A stretch of DNA of 64,000 nt from the NCBI GenBank assembly GCA_016182965.1, contig JACPFM010000109.1, positions 1-64,000 on the forward strand, in the 5' to 3' direction. This document shows positions 19,016-35,085 of the stretch, one piece after another. A model generated the notes under the pieces. That model was not told the origin of the DNA. It searched no databases and saw only the letters and a program-made list of their open reading frames with translations. The translations under genes and the position numbers were made by a program. The stretch comes from Deltaproteobacteria bacterium. Its GTDB lineage: Bacteria > Myxococcota_A > Polyangia > Polyangiales > JADJMO01. The first letter of the stretch is position 1. Every line of letters begins with the position of its first letter.

Positions 19016-19066
19016 CGCTGGTTCGCCGTCCCGACTGTCGGCATCGTGGGGCCGTGGCTCGCGGGT

Positions 19067-19709: not shown

Positions 19710-19743
19710 CGCGAGGCCGAAGCGAGAGGGGTTCGGGCGCATT

Positions 19744-19781
19744 GCGCAGGCGCCTGCGCGCCATTGCGCAGGTGCCTGCGC
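19744..19781. promoter_or_regulatory. Tandem 16-bp palindromes, operator-like
   Basis: GCGCAGGCGCCTGCGC at 19744-19759 is a perfect palindrome. A second copy with one central change, GCGCAGGTGCCTGCGC, is at 19766-19781. Each is preceded by ATT, and the repeat period is 22 bases, about two helical turns. Two equally phased dyads on one face of the helix are typical of a dimeric repressor's operators. They lie 14 bases before a short plus-strand ORF and downstream of the minus-strand MBL operon. Confidence 0.55.
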
Positions 19782-19795
19782 AGCGATCAACAGCG

Positions 19796-19950: not shown

Positions 19951-21057
19951 TCAACGAGCAGCCGACATGTCGAACGCGGCGCCGAAGAGTTCCTCGCGCC
20001 AATGGCGCCCGTCATGCCGCACGCGGATGTGTCCCATGCGCCCCGTGCGCACGCGTCGACTCTTCGTCACCTCGCGCATCGTGCGTTCGACGGCTGCATC
20101 CCGCGGAGGCGGTGCGATCGGTCGGGGCGTTGAAGTCGCGAGCAGACGTCGCGCCACGCGCGTGATCCGGTCGACGTCAGAGTCGCGAGGCAGCTGCACG
20201 CTGCCATTCACAAATGGCGTGAGGACCGCGAGCGGCGAGGCGTCGAGCAGCGTCGACCAGATGGCCTCATGGTCAGCGCTCTTCGAGCCGTGGTGCGCGA
20301 CCTTGTACAGCTCCGACTTGACCACCGGACCGATGCCGGCGCCTATCACACCGAGCCAGCCGCGCCCGGGATCGTTGCCGGTCTCGAGGTCGGCACCGAG
20401 CAGCGCGCTCACCTCGCCGACGCGCACTCGAAGCACGACCGCGGTGTCGTTGGGTTCGGGCGAGACGAGCGCCTTGCGGGTGGTACCGACCCGAGGCTGC
20501 TGGAGACTCTTGAATCCGACGGTCATCGTTGCCGCCGACGGCGATAGAGATCGAACGTGTGCCTCGGGCAGCGAGGACGCTGCGGGACGATAGAAGACGT
20601 CTTGGTCGGCACGCGCCCACTCGGGGCCGGACGACGGCGACCTCCCGCCTCGACGCCGCAACTCCTCCACGATTTCGGCGAACTCCGAGACACCGGCGCC
20701 ATGATCGTCCTTCTGTTGGACGATCTCTTCGGACGCGACGAGACCCAGGAACTGGGCATTGGCCAGGGCGCCGCTGCAGACGAACCTCGCACCGGCGCAT
20801 GCGTGCAGCACGCGCGCGGCGCCGCGCATGTGGTCGTCGTGCCAGTGCGTCACGACGACGAGCTTCACCGCGGTCGCGACGTCGATCCCGAGGTCCGCGA
20901 GGTAGGTCAGCGCGACGGGTTGGTGTGTCGAGGCGTCGAGGCAGGAGTCGACCACCATCCATTCGCCCGCGCCCAAGTGGACGACGAGGCACTCCCCGAA
21001 GCCTGGCCCGAAGACCGAGACCTCGAGCTCATTCTCCTTGGGCGCGCTTGATCTCAC
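19951..21057 (-). CDS. MBL-fold metallo-hydrolase (ComEC-type)
   Basis: A 368-residue protein. The metallo-beta-lactamase signature is intact: VVVTHWHDDHMRG (HxHxDH, residues about 69-81), GADLETGN (second Asp region), and KVAHHGSKSA with the late His. The opening VSVFGPGFGECLVVHLG resembles the ComEC-like MBL proteins often found alone or in defence contexts. There is no signal peptide, so it is cytosolic; a nuclease or phosphodiesterase activity is plausible but unproven. Its start lies 29 bases inside the upstream gene. The last 60 residues are basic (a cluster of Arg/Lys/His) and could bind nucleic acid. It is the last gene of a five-gene minus-strand set. Confidence 0.85.
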   Translation of the reverse strand: MRSSAPKENELEVSVFGPGFGECLVVHLGAGEWMVVDSCLDASTHQPVALTYLADLGIDVATAVKLVVVTHWHDDHMRGAARVLHACAGARFVCSGALANAQFLGLVASEEIVQQKDDHGAGVSEFAEIVEELRRRGGRSPSSGPEWARADQDVFYRPAASSLPEAHVRSLSPSAATMTVGFKSLQQPRVGTTRKALVSPEPNDTAVVLRVRVGEVSALLGADLETGNDPGRGWLGVIGAGIGPVVKSELYKVAHHGSKSADHEAIWSTLLDASPLAVLTPFVNGSVQLPRDSDVDRITRVARRLLATSTPRPIAPPPRDAAVERTMREVTKSRRVRTGRMGHIRVRHDGRHWREELFGAAFDMSAAR

Positions 21058-21649
21058 CGGAGACTCCGAGGAAATCGATCAGCTCGCGCGTTCGCTCTTC
21101 GATGCGACGGATGTCGCGCTTCGACCACGCCGGCAGTCGACGGAACCTGATCGCGGAGACCCGCTCGACCTGCCCGAAGGGCGACGTGCGGTAGCCGATG
21201 CTCCAGTAGAAGATCGCGCCCGGACTCACGAGCGGCCGATCGTCGGGCGAGACCTCATCGAGGCCGATCGTGACCTCTTCTTCAGGCCGCGATGGATCGG
21301 TGAGGTCGCGCAGCACCGCCACGACGTCCTCACCCTCGATCGCCTGGACGGTCCCTTCCCACTGCTGACGGAGATCGAACCGATCGGCCCCGACCCTCAG
21401 CTGCGGCATCGGGACGACGCTCGGCTCAAGGCTTGGGAGCAACGCACGGCGGTCCGGCTCCTGGTCAAGAACCGTTGACGGTTCGCTCTGCTGGGCGACC
21501 GGTGCCACGAGCACCGAGTCGTTGACGACGACCGCCTGCCGGCCGGAGTGTCGTGGCGCCGCGGCGCCGGCGGTCGAGCCGTGCGCGGTCCTGACGCCGG
21601 CAGAATCCGTCGTGCCCCAGCTGGGTTCGACGCGGATCGCGGCGGCCAT
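21029..21649 (-). CDS. Unrecognised protein in MBL operon
   Basis: A 206-residue protein from ATG 21649, whose ATG is shared with the stop of the gene before it (TGATG), so the two are coupled. The N-terminal third is Ser/Thr/Ala-rich and probably disordered. Residues 85-160 look like a small beta-barrel (WEGTVQAIEGEDVVAVLRDL, EEEVTIGLDEV, PGAIFYWSIGYRTSPFGQ). The C-terminus is a basic helix (WSKRDIRRIEERTRELIDFL). No known domain. Its 3' end overlaps the MBL gene by 29 bases, so a functional partnership with the hydrolase is likely. Confidence 0.75.
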   Translation of the reverse strand: MAAAIRVEPSWGTTDSAGVRTAHGSTAGAAAPRHSGRQAVVVNDSVLVAPVAQQSEPSTVLDQEPDRRALLPSLEPSVVPMPQLRVGADRFDLRQQWEGTVQAIEGEDVVAVLRDLTDPSRPEEEVTIGLDEVSPDDRPLVSPGAIFYWSIGYRTSPFGQVERVSAIRFRRLPAWSKRDIRRIEERTRELIDFLGVSGEIKRAQGE

Positions 21650-22305
21650 CAAAAACCTGCCTTCTTCAGCATGGCCTCGGCGCGTGCGGCGGCGTCCCGC
21701 ATCAGTCGGTCGTGGTGGGTACGGACGATGGACATCAGCTCTGCGACCGGGTGGTCCTCGCGAGACGGGCGAAGATCGTTGTTGAACTCGAAGAACACGC
21801 CGTCGATGTGGTTCGCGGCGGGCTCGATTCGGATGTTGAGCTTGCCGACGAGAGCGTCTGTGCGCGCGCCCTCGGCCGTAAGCGTACGAAGCTTCGGCTG
21901 GTCGAGCACGCCGTCCCATCGGTCCTTCGGCATGAGTTTGTCGCCGAGGCTGTCGCGGGCTTCTTTGCTGCCGAGCCGATACTGGAGCGCACGATTCAAG
22001 CCTAGCGCCGTGACCGGCGTGTGCTCGAGCAGCTCGAACACACCCAGGACGAGGTCGCGCAGCGGAGCGAAGTGCGTCGCGGCCGAGGTGAGCGCGATGA
22101 ACTTGTTGCGCGTCACGGAGAGCGTCAGCCATCCCGTACGGAACGACGCGACCTCTGGATGTACGACGTCGAGGATGGCGCCCTCGGCCTCGCTTGCGCC
22201 CAACAGACCCTTCTGCGCCAGCCAGCTCGGCTGGAAGATCGCCGGGTTGAACGAGCCGAGCAGAACGATCGACGCGACCTCTTCTTCGATCTTCAGCGGC
22301 GTCAT
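21649..22305 (-). CDS. Unrecognised protein in MBL operon
   Basis: A 218-residue protein. I chose ATG 22305 (GGAG close upstream); a longer frame begins 12 codons earlier. It begins KIEEEVASIVLLGSFNPAIF and has the segments GWLTLSVTRNKFIALTSAA, TPVTALGLNRALQYRL and DGVFFEFNNDL, a mixed alpha/beta pattern without catalytic motifs that I can name. The TALGLNR-type strand is reminiscent of sporadically distributed bacterial hypothetical families often found beside defence or restriction genes, but I cannot match it firmly. It is coupled to the next gene by TGATG. Probably cytosolic. Confidence 0.75.
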   Translation of the reverse strand: MTPLKIEEEVASIVLLGSFNPAIFQPSWLAQKGLLGASEAEGAILDVVHPEVASFRTGWLTLSVTRNKFIALTSAATHFAPLRDLVLGVFELLEHTPVTALGLNRALQYRLGSKEARDSLGDKLMPKDRWDGVLDQPKLRTLTAEGARTDALVGKLNIRIEPAANHIDGVFFEFNNDLRPSREDHPVAELMSIVRTHHDRLMRDAAARAEAMLKKAGF

Positions 22306-22369
22306 GGGGCTCCGGAGCGGCTTCGCCGGGCAGGCTAGCACGGAACGAGCCGGTTACCCGCCGAGCCTC

Positions 22370-22828
22370 TCACGCGCCGCTCTCGGTGAGTGCGGCGGGG
22401 ACAAGATCCGCCGCTCTTCGAGCCGCTGAACGCAACGCTGACACCACGGAAGTCGCCATGAGCCTGCCGGCCCACTCACTCGTCCTCGCACCCGGGAGCG
22501 CCGGGCCGTTCTTGTCCCGCTCCGGCTTCACCTTCTCCTGCACGATCGCGAGCAGGTCCTGGCGGCTCGCGGCGTCGAGGCCGTGGGCAGCGCAGGCGAG
22601 GCGCAGCTCGTCACGACCCATCCACTCGACGAGCCCGCGCAGCCGGACCTGCTCGGATCGCGCGAGCGCGGTGGCGATGTCCGTCTTGGTCCCGCGCTGC
22701 GGCACGGCGACGCTGAAGTGACGCGCGACGTCGAACAGCCGTGCCTTGGTCGGCAGCAGCGATTTCTCTCCGTGCGACGCCTTCCGTCGCAGCCAACCAA
22801 CGGCAGAGCGCGCCTGCGCAATCGTCAC
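22370..22828 (-). CDS. SAP-like helical protein
   Basis: A 152-residue protein. Residues 25-95 contain one or two helix-extended-loop-helix units (LFDVARHFSVAVPQRGTKTD; MGRDELRLACAAHGLDAA followed by RQDLLAIVQE) that resemble SAP-type nucleic-acid-binding motifs. The C-terminal 45 residues are Ala/Arg-rich helix. The start overlaps the stop of the upstream gene (ATGA). It lies 64 bases before the next gene on the same strand and probably belongs to the same transcript. DNA binding is inferred from the motif only. Confidence 0.65.
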   Translation of the reverse strand: MTIAQARSAVGWLRRKASHGEKSLLPTKARLFDVARHFSVAVPQRGTKTDIATALARSEQVRLRGLVEWMGRDELRLACAAHGLDAASRQDLLAIVQEKVKPERDKNGPALPGARTSEWAGRLMATSVVSALRSAARRAADLVPAALTESGA

Positions 22829-23481
22829 CGGAGCGCCTTCACGAGCGCCTCGACCCGCGCCGCGTCGACGCGCAACACGATCTCGAAGCCGCCCTTCGCG
22901 CGCGACGCCGTCGCGGTCGCGCCCTTTCCGCCCGCTGCGCGCACGGCGGCTTGCAGCGTGCGCGCGGCCTTGTCCGCGGCGACCTCGCGCGGGTCGGGCT
23001 TCTCGGTCTTCGCGCGCACCGCGCGCGCCGCCTCTTCGATCTCACGCGCGGAGGCGCCGGCGATCTTCTTGCGCCCCTTGCCGACACGCACGCCCTCTTC
23101 GAGCACCTCGTCGATCGTGTCGAGCTCCGGCGTCGTGGCGACGAGCCGTGCGAGGGCGTACGCCTTCTCGGGCCCGAGCTCCATCGCCTTCGGCCGCGGC
23201 ACGTTGCTGACGACGCCGATCAGCTTCTCGGCCGTCCGCCGGCTCATCACCTTCCGCGCGGCGAGCAGCCCGCCGAAGCTCGAGTAGCCGAGGGCGACGA
23301 AGAGCTTCTTCTTCCGGATCTCGGCGAGGGCGAGGCCGATCTCGTAGAAGTCCTCGGCGATGCGCGCCTTGCGGCGTTCGATGAGCGCGAGCAGCTCCTC
23401 GGCCCTCTTGCCCGCCGCCGTGCTCGCCTTCCTCGCCGCGGCAAGCAGTTTCTTGGTCCTCACGCCCTGCGCTGTCGCCAT
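22825..23481 (-). CDS. Phage/plasmid-type helix-turn-helix protein
   Basis: A 218-residue, Lys/Ala-rich protein from ATG 23481. Residues 25-95 follow a pattern known from phage and plasmid proteins: a helix ending IGLALAEIRKKKLFVALGYS, then SSFGGLLAARKVMSRRTAEK, in which a sentence of the type 'aromatic-S-S-F' precedes a helix-turn-helix. The C-terminal half is a basic helical region and a final strand-helix (GGFEIVLRVDAARVEALVKAL). It is first in the five-gene minus-strand set and could be its regulator or DNA-targeting part. It is coupled to the SAP-like gene by ATGA. The call is by pattern, not by a clear family match. Confidence 0.65.
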   Translation of the reverse strand: MATAQGVRTKKLLAAARKASTAAGKRAEELLALIERRKARIAEDFYEIGLALAEIRKKKLFVALGYSSFGGLLAARKVMSRRTAEKLIGVVSNVPRPKAMELGPEKAYALARLVATTPELDTIDEVLEEGVRVGKGRKKIAGASAREIEEAARAVRAKTEKPDPREVAADKAARTLQAAVRAAGGKGATATASRAKGGFEIVLRVDAARVEALVKALR

Positions 23482-23539: not shown

Positions 23540-23704
23540 TTCGTCGGTCGTCAGTCGTCCATCGTCAGCCGAGTTCCGGCCGGCGGGTGGAGCGCCACGT
23601 TCCGACAAACCCAGCGGAGGCCCGCTCCCGGCCGACGGTGTCTCCCCTGCCGTCCCCCGCTCTGCTCTCTCGTGCTGACGACTGACGACTGACGACTGAC
23701 GACT
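23540..23704. repeat. GTCGTCAGTCGTC / GACTGACGAC inverted repeat cluster
   Basis: Plus-strand copies of TCGTCGGTCGTCAGTCGTCC at 23540-23559 face about four head-to-tail copies of GACGACT at 23677-23704. The two could pair across about 115 bases. They fill the gap of about 318 bases between the lipoprotein gene and the start of the five-gene set, and I see no gene in that gap. One further GACTGACGAC occurs at 55531-55540, at the broken end of the mscL remnant. Confidence 0.65.
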
Positions 23705-29851: not shown

Positions 29852-32800
29852 ATGAGCCAGATGAGGAGACCTGCGATCCATAGAGTCAGCGCGCCTGGGT
29901 CGGAGGAGTCGCACGCCGAGAGCGAGCGCTCGAGGGCCTTTCCGATCGTGGCGGTCGGCGCGTCCGCGGGCGGGCTCGAGGCGTTCACCGAGCTGCTCCG
30001 CGTCCTCCCGGAGCACAGCGGGATGGCGTTCGTGCTCGTCCAGCACCTCGACCCCTCGCACGCGAGCTACCTGAGCGAGGCGCTCGCGAAGGTCACGAAG
30101 ATCCCCGTGACCGAGATCCGCGACGGGATGGTCGTCGAGCGCGATCACGTCTACGTCGTGCCCTCCAACGCCGACGTCGGCATCCTCAAGGGAGCGCTCA
30201 CCCTGTTCCCGAGGCCGGAGCGGAGACCCCATCTCCCCATCGACTTCTTCATGAGCGCCCTGGCGGCCGACTGCGGCAGTCAGGCCCTGGGCGTCGTCCT
30301 CTCGGGGACGGGCTCCGACGGCTCGGAGGGCCTTCGCGCCATCAAGGCGGGCGGCGGCGTCGCCTTCGCGCAGGAGCCCCGGTCCGCGAAGTTCCGCGGC
30401 ATGCCCGAGGCGGCGATCGACACGGGAGTCGTGGACTTCCTCCTGCCCATCCCCGAGCTGGTGCGCGAGCTGTTGCGGATCGGCCACCACCCGTTCGTTC
30501 TCCGACGCGCCGACGAGGTGCTCGCGGGCGGCGCGGAGGACGTGGAGCTCAAGAAGGTCTTCGTGCTCGTCCGCAACGCGGTCGGGGTCGACTTCAGCGA
30601 CTACAAGGCGACCAGCGTCCGCAGGCGATTGGCTCGACGGATGGCCCTGCGGCAGGTGGCGACGATCTCCGATTACCTGCTGCTCCTGCGGGAAGACCCG
30701 AACGAGGTGCAGGCGCTCTGCGCCGACATGCTCATCCACGTCACGACCTTCTTCCGCGACCCCGCCGCGTTCGAGAAGCTCAAGGAGCGCGCCTTTCCGG
30801 AGATCCTCGAGGCCAAGCGCAACGGCGGGAAGATCCGCGTCTGGTCGGCCGGGTGCTCGACCGGAGAAGAGGCGTACTCGCTCGTCATCGCGCTCATGGA
30901 GTTCCTCGCGGAGGAGAACGCGTCCGACATCCCCATCCAGTTGTTCGGGACCGACATCTCGGAGAGGGCCATCGAGAGGGCTCGGAGCGGCTTCTACGCC
31001 GAGGGCGTCACGCGCGACGTCGGTGTGGAGCGGCTTTCGCGCTACTTCACGAAGGTCGACGGCGGCGGCTATCGAATCAACAGGGCGGTCCGCGAGCGTT
31101 GCGCCTTCGTCAAGCACGACGTCACGAGCGATCCGCCGTTCTCGAAGATCGACCTCGTGAGCTGTCGAAACCTCCTCATCTACTTCGGGCAGGAGCTGCA
31201 GAAGCGAGTGCTCGCGACGCTCCAATTCTCGCTCGGTCACCCGGGCTTCCTGCTGCTCGGTCACGCCGAGAGCATCGTCGACGGCACCGACCTGTTCTCG
31301 GTCGTCGACAAGGAGAACAAGATCTTCGAGCGGACCGCCGTCAAGACCGCGCTCCGCGTGGCCGCCGCCAGAGACGTCTACCCCGTCGGTGCGAACGCGC
31401 CCGAGGGCGGCGTGCGCGCGTCGACGCCCGGACCGGGCGACGTCGTTCGCCGAACCGAGAGCTTGCTCCTCGAGCAGTACGCCCCCCCGGCGTCATCATC
31501 AACGGACGGAACGAGATCCTCCATTTCCGTGGGAGGACCGGGACGTACCTCGAGCCGCCGCCCGGCCAGCCGCAGCACGATCTCCTCAAGATGGCGCGCC
31601 AGGGCCTCCTCGCGGATCTTCGCATCGCGATCTCGCAGGCTCGGAAGGCGAAGGCCATCGCGCGTCGCCCCGGCGTTCGGGTCGAGCATCATGGCGTGAC
31701 ACACGTCTGCGACATCGTCGTCGTCCCGGTCGCGACGCCGCCCGAGTCACGAGAGGACTTCCTCGCCGTGCTCTTCGAGGAGGTCCCCGACGCGGCGACG
31801 GTCGGCCCCGCGACCCGTGGCGAGGCAGCGTCCGTTGGCGCAGGCGACGAGGGCGCCGCCGACCAGGCGCGCGTCCGCAAGCTCGACGACGAGCTGAAGG
31901 CCACGAAGGAGTACCTCGGCTCGCTGATCGAGGAGCACCAGCGCACGAACGAGGAGCTGCTCTCGGCGAACGAGGAGCTGATCTCGAGCAACGAGGAGCT
32001 CCAGACGCTGAACGAGGAGCTCGAGACCGCCAAGGAGGAGCTCCAGTCCACGAACGAGGAGCTGAGGACGCTCAACGAGGAGCAACAATCACGCAACGTC
32101 GAGGTCACCTCGGTCAACGCCGACCTCGTCAACATCCTCGGCAGCGTCGAGGTCCCGATCGTCATCGTCGACGCGCGGCGCTGCATCCGACGGTTCACCC
32201 CCAAGGCGCGCCCCATTCTGAACCTCCTCCCGTCGGACGTGGGTCGCCCGATCGACGACATCAAACCGACCGTCGCCATCGACGACCTCGACCGGAAGAT
32301 CTCCGACGTCATCGACACGGCGGTCCTGCACGAGGAGGAGGTCCGGGGTCCCGATGGACGCTGGTACCGGCTGCAGATTCGTCCGTACAAGACCCTCGAC
32401 ATGAGGGTCGATGGGGCGGTGGTCTCGATCATCGACATCGACGCGTTGAAGCGCGCGCTCGGCGCCGCCGAGTGGGCGCGCGACTACGCCAAGGCGACCG
32501 TCGAGGCCGTCCCGACGCCGCTCCTCGTGCTCGACGACAGGCTCCGGGTCTTCTCCGCCAACGCGGCGTTCCACGAGAGCTTCCGCCTGTCGCGCGGTGA
32601 GTCCGACGGCCGCGATCTCTCCTCGGTCATGGGCGGCGCATGGGACGTCCCCGAGCTCCGGTATGCAGTCGAGCGTGCGCTGAAGAACGACGAGCGCTTC
32701 GAGAAGCTGGTGCTGGAGCGGGCGCTTCCGCGGCTCGGCCTGCGTTCGGTGTCGCTGTCCGGTCGCTCGATCTCCACGCCGAGCGGCGAGCGGCTCGTCT

Positions 32801-34014
32801 TGCTGGCGCCCGAGGACGTCACCGACCGCCTGCGCCGCGAAGAGGAGAGAGCCAGCCTGCTCGAGGCGACGCAGAGCGCCAAGGCCGCCGCCGAGGCCGC
32901 CAACCGCACGAAGGACGTCTTCCTCGCGACGCTCTCGCACGAGCTCCGCACGCCGCTCTCGAGCGTCCTCGCGCAGGCCCAGCTGCTGCGCCGCGGAACG
33001 CCGGACGAGGAGCGGGTCCATCGCGCGAGCGAGATCATCGAGCGATCGGTGCGGCTGCAGGCGCAGCTCATCGACGATCTCCTCGACGTCTCGCGCATCG
33101 TGGCCGGCAAGCTGAAGATGCAGCTCCAGTCGGTCCACCTCGCGTCGGTCGTGCGCGCCGCGGTCGAAGCGCTCGGCCCGTCGGCCGAGGCCAAACACAT
33201 CGACGTCGAGCTCCGACTCGACGACTCGGTGCCGCCGGTGTCCGGCGATCCGGTGCGGCTGCAGCAGGTGATCTCGAACCTCCTGACGAACGCCATCAAG
33301 TTCACGCCGCCGCGGGGCCGCATCGTCGCCAGCGTCGACTCGGCCGAGGGGCTCGGCCGCGTCCAGGTGGCCGACACGGGCAGCGGCATCGATCCCGCCT
33401 TCATGCCGCACATCTTCCGGCGCTTCGCCCAGGAGGAGCGCGGGCAGGCGCCGGCGCACGGTGGTCTCGGCCTCGGCCTGACCATCGCCCATCACCTGGT
33501 CGAGGCCCATGGGGGCACGCTCTTCGCGGAGAGCGCCGGAAAGGAGCGAGGCGCGACGTTCACCGTGTTGGTTCCGCTGATGCGCGCCAGCCTCGGGCCG
33601 CAGCCCGTCCTCGCCCCCGCCTCGCGCAGCCTCGCCGGGGCCCGCGTGCTGTTCGTCGAAGACGACGCCGGGACACGCGAAGCGGTGAGCGAGATGCTCG
33701 GCATCGGCGGCGCCGAGGTCCAGCTGGCCGCGTCGGCGCGCGACGCGTTCCGCGTCCTCGAGAGCTTCGCGCCCGATGTGCTCATCTGCGACATCGCGAT
33801 GCCCGAAGAGGACGGCTTCAGCCTGCTCCGGCGGGTCCGCGCGATGCCCCCGCCCCTCGGGCGCGTCCCCGCGATCGCGCTCACGTCGCTCGCCGGCGAA
33901 GCCGATCGGCGCCGCGCGCTCGAGGCCGGATTCCAGCGTCACGTGGCCAAGCCCGTCGCGATCGAGCGCCTCACCGCCGAGGTCGCGGGCCTACTCGGCG
34001 CCTCGATTACCTAG
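29852..34014 (+). CDS. CheB-CheR-PAS-histidine kinase-receiver hybrid, one-base frameshift
   Basis: About 1388 codons if the frame is restored. ATG 29852 follows GGAGG at a long spacing. Domain order: CheB methylesterase (VGASAGG with catalytic Ser, QHLDPSH, GTGSDGSEG) at residues 30-215; CheR methyltransferase (RRRLARRMALRQ, SAGCSTGEEAYSL, FGTDIS, VSCRNLLIYF) at 240-490; a coiled coil with repeated TNEELLSANEEL-type units at about 690-750; PAS domains; HisKA (LSHELRTPLSSVL); HATPase (NLLTNAIKFTP, GLGLGLTIAHH); and a C-terminal receiver (EDDAGTR, CDIAMPEEDG). The frame breaks at a run of seven C (31482-31488): one more C restores the conserved PPGVIING. No separate chemotaxis genes adjoin it. 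Confidence 0.85.
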
Positions 34015-34023
34015 TCGCGCGAA

Positions 34024-35085
34024 TCAGAACGAAAGCTCCACCTCCGTCCCCAGGACGGGCACCCGGCGCAGATCGTACGCCGCCGGGACCAGCGGGCCGT
34101 CGACGTCGTTGATGAGGATGCCGCCCATCGCCATCACCGACGACTGTCTGCCGAGCGTCACCTTGAGGCCGCCCGCGATCTGCGTGCCGTTGCCGATGTC
34201 GGCCGCGTAGCGGATCCGCTGCGCGTCGACGAACGGGAACACGCGCGTGCCGATCAGGTACCCGACGCGGCCGCCGACCATCGCCTGCGGCGCGTAGACG
34301 CCGACCTGCGACATGACGGCGACGGTCCCGAGCCGCGGCCCCACGGCGCCGCGGAGGCTCTTGTCGTAGACGAAGACCATCCCGCGCGGGATCACCTGCA
34401 ACCTCCGGGTGACGCGCCACAGCAGCTCCGCCTGCCCGAACCACTGCGTGATCGTCGCGCCGGCAGGTCCTTCGCCGCTCGCCCATCGGAACCGGTTCCA
34501 CGCGGCGGCGAGCTGGATCGCGACCGGCGGCGGGACGTCGCGCGACCAGTCGCCGCCCAGCTCCTTGCCGACGGCGGCGATCGCGCTCCAGCTCTCGATG
34601 CCGTGGGCCATCGGACCGTACAGCCCCGACAGCTCGGTCGACCACCCGGGCGCCGGGCGGTAGCCGATGCCGCCGCCGACGTACGGCACGATCACCGTGG
34701 GATCGCCGGCGGCGTAGGGCGAGATGTGCAGGAGCGCGGTCTGCGGGATGAGCGAGAAGCGGGCGGAGGTCGGGACGTCGACGCGCGCGCCGGCGTAGGT
34801 GACGTGACCGACGCGGTTGGCCGCGACGCCGGTGGTGATCGGCGGCGTCACCGCCGCGCCCGGATCGGGGCCCGGGCGCCCGATCTCGCCGAAGCGCGTG
34901 TCGTCGGTGATCGCGCGGCCCTCGGCGGCCGTCGCGCCGTGCGGAGACGGAGGCGGGATCATGTCGGCACGCGCCGCGCCCGCGAGCATCGTCATGCTCG
35001 CCAGAGTGGTCGCCAGAGTGGTCACCAGCGTCGCCGCCCCGGCGTGTGCGCAGCGCGCGACACCGGACACGAGTGAACGAGTCAT
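34024..35085 (-). CDS. Predicted outer-membrane beta-barrel protein
   Basis: A 353-residue protein from ATG 35085; an upstream in-frame start six codons away is less likely. The signal peptide spans residues 1-40 and ends GAARAD. After a Pro/Thr linker the rest alternates in beta-strand fashion with aromatic ends (LLHISPYAAGDPTVIVPYVG, IGYRPAPGWSTELSGLYG, RVFPFVDAQRIRYAADIG) and the last residues are VELSF. A terminal Phe preceded by alternating residues is the classical outer-membrane barrel signal. Function is unknown. It converges with the hybrid kinase gene (9-base gap) and is divergent from the glycosyltransferase fusion gene. Confidence 0.75.
   Translation of the reverse strand: MTRSLVSGVARCAHAGAATLVTTLATTLASMTMLAGAARADMIPPPSPHGATAAEGRAITDDTRFGEIGRPGPDPGAAVTPPITTGVAANRVGHVTYAGARVDVPTSARFSLIPQTALLHISPYAAGDPTVIVPYVGGGIGYRPAPGWSTELSGLYGPMAHGIESWSAIAAVGKELGGDWSRDVPPPVAIQLAAAWNRFRWASGEGPAGATITQWFGQAELLWRVTRRLQVIPRGMVFVYDKSLRGAVGPRLGTVAVMSQVGVYAPQAMVGGRVGYLIGTRVFPFVDAQRIRYAADIGNGTQIAGGLKVTLGRQSSVMAMGGILINDVDGPLVPAAYDLRRVPVLGTEVELSF

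Follow-up and report, generated by a model that had tools for sequence, protein, structure and literature searches.

Five genes lie in close succession on the minus strand of the window, the 64,000-nucleotide stretch of DNA analysed here, and had been regarded in a preliminary description as a single functional unit. This raises the question of which of these genes belong together and in what process they may take part. All five open reading frames are present as described, with a coding-like distribution of GC over the codon positions: from the upstream end, they encode an HTH-type protein of 218 residues (HTH218, 22825..23481), a SAP-like protein of 152 residues (SAP152, 22370..22828), a second 218-residue protein (P218, 21649..22305, read from the ATG at 22305), P206 (21029..21649) and an MBL-fold hydrolase of 368 residues (MBL, 19951..21057). 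The first two adjoin a conserved cassette of which they are not members; the remaining three are, in this order, its genes 1 to 3 and are proposed to act as sensor or regulator (P218), adaptor or inhibitor (P206) and DNase effector (MBL).

To delimit the conserved unit, loci were fetched by means of the MBL protein and searched by tblastn with each of the other proteins. P218 and P206 were found upstream of close MBL relatives, whereas no relatives of HTH218 or SAP152 were detected in the other trio loci, so that a unit of five genes is unsupported; homologues scattered without co-occurrence are what we observe for HTH218 and SAP152, but clearly not for the trio. The order and orientation P218-P206-MBL is fixed in 50 non-redundant loci from at least eight phyla, as scored with profiles in those close-MBL loci that have enough upstream sequence and after clustering at 90% MBL identity (members of different clusters being less than 90% identical). 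Every non-truncated locus of a close MBL relative contains both partners, with the exception of one damaged copy (L025) in which MBL is disrupted and no P218 was detected; the other exceptions are two fragments at contig edges (L061 and L063). MBL proteins with scores under about 130 bits belong to other families and are accompanied by neither partner. Moreover, P218 and P206 mostly overlap by a few bases or sit within ten bases of each other, and the pairwise distances of the three proteins are correlated (Mantel r 0.83-0.87, none of 999 permutations being as high), a correlation to which shared host ancestry may contribute, the tree nonetheless mixing phyla and viral contigs. Taken together, these results show that P218-P206-MBL is a real, recurrent and unnamed three-gene module, that is, a conserved, co-inherited and co-oriented gene unit, which is carried by prophages and plasmids.

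The distribution of this module is patchy, and it is rare (9 of 379 Myxococcota, divergent copies counted; 5 of 398 Pseudomonadota; 1 of 396 Actinomycetota; 17 of 5426 E. coli). Trio loci were recovered from Myxococcota, Hydrogenedentota, Gemmatimonadota, Actinomycetota, Verrucomicrobiota, Planctomycetota (a damaged copy), Pseudomonadota and Bacteroidota, the last on a plasmid; a conjugative Pantoea plasmid and about 30 IMG/VR contigs carry the trio as well, and one copy adjoins a Zot gene in a probable filamentous prophage (L141). Using two queries in tblastn, we found no trio relatives in sequenced isolated phages. In different E. coli prophages, the trio occupies, in reversed orientation, the space between holin and antiterminator Q; the block of lysis genes, trio and Q is 97% identical between two different prophage backbones (L077:18381-22804 and L167:1392-5805), which therefore indicates that the block has been exchanged.

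With regard to function, MBL matches Pfam Lactamase_B above cut-off, and its HxHxDH motif proved to be intact, as had been noted before. In an alignment of 42 sequences, H71, D75, H76, D223 and H255 are invariant and H73 is present in 41, i.e. the predicted metal ligands are essentially invariant; E125, N203 and K252 are likewise invariant. Besides DNA, MBL folds can hydrolyse RNA or small molecules. The nearest family by sequence is ComEC (NCBIfam ComEC_Rec2, 1.9e-5; ComEC in the PDB, 5e-13), the C-terminal MBL nuclease domain of ComEC/Rec2 being the closest curated and solved relative and sharing aligned H-x-x-x-D-H, N-x-x-S, A-D-x-E and K-V-P-H-H-G-S motifs. In contrast to ComEC/Rec2, however, the trio protein stands alone, with neither channel protein nor membrane segment, carries about 40 extra residues between two aligned blocks and is encoded together with P218 and P206; accordingly, only the C-terminal MBL part of the ComEC_Rec2 model is matched, with a score of 23 against a cut-off of 190.

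The ComEC-like MBL proteins of the Hachiman and AVAST defence systems degrade DNA (PMC12799240), and owing to this published activity, together with the ComEC-like site, we propose that MBL is the nuclease effector of the module. Gated MBL nucleases of the HamM/Avs1a type found in these systems have been acquired repeatedly by unrelated defence systems (PMC12799240). Like them, the trio protein has, judging from sequence, a ComEC-like MBL domain whose metal ligands are intact, and in both cases a ComEC-like MBL nuclease (a putative one in the trio) would serve a separate sensing module. HamM and Avs1a differ in having a trypsin-like protease partner; none is seen beside the trio MBL, since neither P218 nor P206 has a Pfam, NCBIfam or PADLOC match, and the Avs1a model scores 16 on the trio protein (cut-off 420). 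Similarly, the LmuA-MBL of Lamassu and the DRT-associated MBL (both in PADLOC) are weakly similar to the N-terminal MBL half of the trio protein, the LmuA match (6e-6) covering the MBL domain only, but the trio lacks an SMC (LmuB-like) or reverse-transcriptase partner. The 6A-MBL anti-phage system (NF058524), for which our literature search returned no paper, likewise relies on an MBL-fold defence protein, its model giving 12.9 bits with the trio MBL at a cut-off of 220.

The two partner proteins were approached through predicted structures. In P206, the N-terminal ~85 residues are poorly conserved and predicted without structure (pLDDT ~50), and are followed by a five-stranded OB-like domain (residues ~88-170, pLDDT 96-98 over 91-170) whose best PDB neighbours, at a weak E of 1.8e-3, are lysyl-tRNA synthetases. 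Conserved residues comprise W97, G99, D137, W149, G152, R170 and R171. As an OB-like C-terminal domain with a variable tail suits such roles, P206 is proposed to be an adaptor or inhibitor. The AlphaFold model of P218 is a confident single domain (mean pLDDT 96.3) for which no close or informative fold was found in the PDB; a Foldseek match to AdoMetDC-like proteins was discarded as uninformative (TM 0.31-0.35, rmsd above 10).

Two gene sets without MBL are headed by divergent P218 proteins, whose identity was confirmed by comparing profiles (98% and 97.7%); a search of viral contigs with a divergent P218 query returned nothing. One of these proteins (L127:4613-6693) is the first in a separate set of three, close to an Hsp90-like ATPase and a Dcm-type cytosine methylase, and is followed by a 232-residue protein and a candidate permuted papain-like peptidase. 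The His and Cys motifs of this third protein resemble, by eye, those of such peptidases; it has no family match. The other (L153:1068-9514) follows type I restriction genes for HsdR and for an HsdM that weakly matches SAP, and precedes an unrecognised 300-residue protein and an integrase-like gene. These sets suggest that P218 is the component that recurs in varied company, which is why the putative role of sensor was assigned to it. Considering that the OB match of P206 is weak and that the fold of P218 lacks an informative relative, the roles of sensor and adaptor are guesses. It is a tentative further idea, which we regard as possible but somewhat doubtful, that P218 is the founder of a new family of infection sensors that can be interchanged, forming one immune system with P206 and the MBL nuclease while its divergent members head other operons.

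Gene-neighbourhood analysis, which had been suggested at the outset, showed the trio to recur as a unit that in several genomes adjoins known defence genes. In one genome it is flanked by an HmaC/DUF499-like gene on one side and an HmaB/DUF1156-like gene on the other (L124), and elsewhere an HmaC-like gene lies upstream (L018), an HmaB-like gene downstream (L020), or a TmtA-like (L022) or BREX-6 PglZ-like gene (L125) beside it. As the DUF499 and DUF1156 scores fall below the strict NCBIfam equivalog cut-offs, the Hma-like neighbours are family-level matches; they come from Gemmatimonadota and one myxococcote, and the BREX-6 PglZ neighbour from another myxococcote. The trio is not a regular part of Hma or BREX, most copies lying elsewhere, and several chromosomal copies (e.g. 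L138 and L144) have no recognised defence neighbour within the stretch read.

In addition, two RefSeq genomes give the name 'anti-phage protein' to an E. coli homologue of P218 (WP_000143147.1), and a near-identical accession in ECOR29 is named 'hypothetical'. We infer that the former name was attached on some evidence. Searching the literature by accession and by description, we found no paper that describes the trio or lies behind this name; two candidate sources were set aside, the main text of the DefensePredictor paper containing neither an MBL nor a matching domain, and Vassallo 2022 having no MBL. Context, mobility and this one annotation suggest a defence role for the trio. The earlier guess at defence is thus well supported by context as far as the ComEC-like hydrolase, the recurrence and the defence neighbours in several genomes are concerned, but not in its inclusion of HTH218 and SAP152.

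Overall, we consider it probable that P218-P206-MBL is a mobile three-component anti-phage module in which MBL serves as DNase effector, P218 as sensor and P206, with its OB fold, as adaptor or inhibitor. According to this model, MBL would be a DNA nuclease that is kept inactive or positioned by P206, P218 would sense infection or free the complex, and the freed MBL would cut phage and/or host DNA, thereby halting phage production, probably with abortive infection as the outcome. The trio would then join a known kind of defence system, that with an MBL nuclease effector, its presumed novelty residing in two uncharacterised protein families, and, if the model is true, it would add a protease-free control of a ComEC-like MBL nuclease. 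Although the module spans at least eight phyla, two of its three families are absent from Pfam, NCBIfam and PADLOC, and, should it be a defence system, it has been missed by current annotation tools. The E. coli prophage copy, for instance that at L077:20001-22401, provides a version that is directly testable in the laboratory.

An alternative which we deem unlikely, albeit the best placed of its competitors, is an arrangement resembling the toxin-antitoxin-chaperone system CmdTAC, in which MBL would be the toxin, P206 a labile antitoxin and P218 the chaperone that sustains it until distracted by a phage protein. E. coli is known to have a three-gene defence operon in which a toxin-like domain goes together with a SecB-like chaperone (PMC9519451), and CmdTAC / PD-T4-9 shares with the trio the three-gene operon logic and the two small accessory proteins; the tight coupling of the three genes and the low-confidence, variable tail of P206 would fit as well. 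The effector folds differ, however, and P218 offers neither sequence nor fold evidence of a SecB-like chaperone: SecB is not among the PDB fold matches listed for P218, and comparison with the profile of TIGR04255, a family suspected to be similar, gave a probability of 1.4%, so that this kinship was rejected.

We attach still less probability to a cassette that is itself not antiviral but serves the prophage or DNA processing in the cell, be it as a lysogenic-conversion moron or in DNA uptake or repair. Its accessory slot in prophages, the ComEC-like nature of the hydrolase and the copies devoid of defence neighbours are compatible with such a function, but chromosomal trios lie beside several unrelated defence systems, the trio is also found on plasmids, no ComEC channel gene was seen adjoining it and one P218 has been named anti-phage.

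As to the two genes upstream, the coupling and composition described for the whole block were re-evaluated. The TGATG at the P218/P206 junction and the 29-nt overlap of P206 and MBL were confirmed, whereas the reported ATGA does not exist, the HTH218/SAP152 overlap reading GTGA. Tight packing likewise fails between SAP152 and P218, where 64 nt separate the SAP152 stop from the ATG at 22305, a gap that shrinks to 28 nt if P218 starts at an in-frame GTG at 22341 (230 residues). The lower GC reported for the block is a property of the trio (0.673, below 99.9% of same-size stretches in the window), since HTH218 is at window level (0.72) and SAP152 in between (0.704). Third-position GC is 0.81-0.83 in the trio, lower than in most neighbours and than in HTH218 (0.94); SAP152 (0.83) is trio-like in that one respect.

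HTH218 has 10 matches in this genome and occurs in 31 of 57 relatives, the trio being absent in most cases and the gene neighbourhoods differing. By eye, two of its copies (L114, G000:C198, and L122, G003:C15) lie just downstream of cas4-1-looking genes, the latter with a cas2-looking gene also upstream. SAP152 finds its relatives mainly at the N-termini of large SNF2-type helicases from related genomes, which we take to be possibly DrmD-like. Given a multicopy protein and a helicase-like N-terminus, the idea of a nucleic-acid-binding front to the unit was abandoned. That all five genes form one operon in which HTH218 and SAP152 target MBL to DNA, as first proposed, is hardly credible in spite of the common strand, the short gaps, the HTH218/SAP152 overlap and the sole promoter-like site found, which sits upstream of HTH218, for neither protein accompanies the trio elsewhere, HTH218 represents a dispersed multicopy family with a GC unlike that of the trio, and the 64-nt gap lies ahead of P218.

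The repeats said to flank the block are not a matching pair. Upstream of HTH218, GTCGTCA-like simple sequence forms an imperfect inverted repeat (23541-23702); 19740-19782 consists of two near-identical 20-nt copies in tandem, forming a hairpin with 17-nt arms. As the two are unrelated in sequence, they were ruled out as ends of a mobile element. The hairpin lies ~170 nt downstream of the MBL stop and is a possible terminator.

Finally, we compared the window with related genomes. The match to a same-genus genome breaks off at 19022 and resumes at 34034; where the window has ~15 kb between these points, the other genome has ~8 kb of different DNA, and MBL was not found in any of the four genomes of the clade that were searched, one from the same genus and three from the same family. 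Horizontal transfer probably brought the trio into a variable segment, where it came to lie behind two resident genes unrelated to it. A large PAS/histidine kinase with a receiver domain (30853-34011) is encoded at the distal end of the stretch in which the window and the same-genus genome differ.
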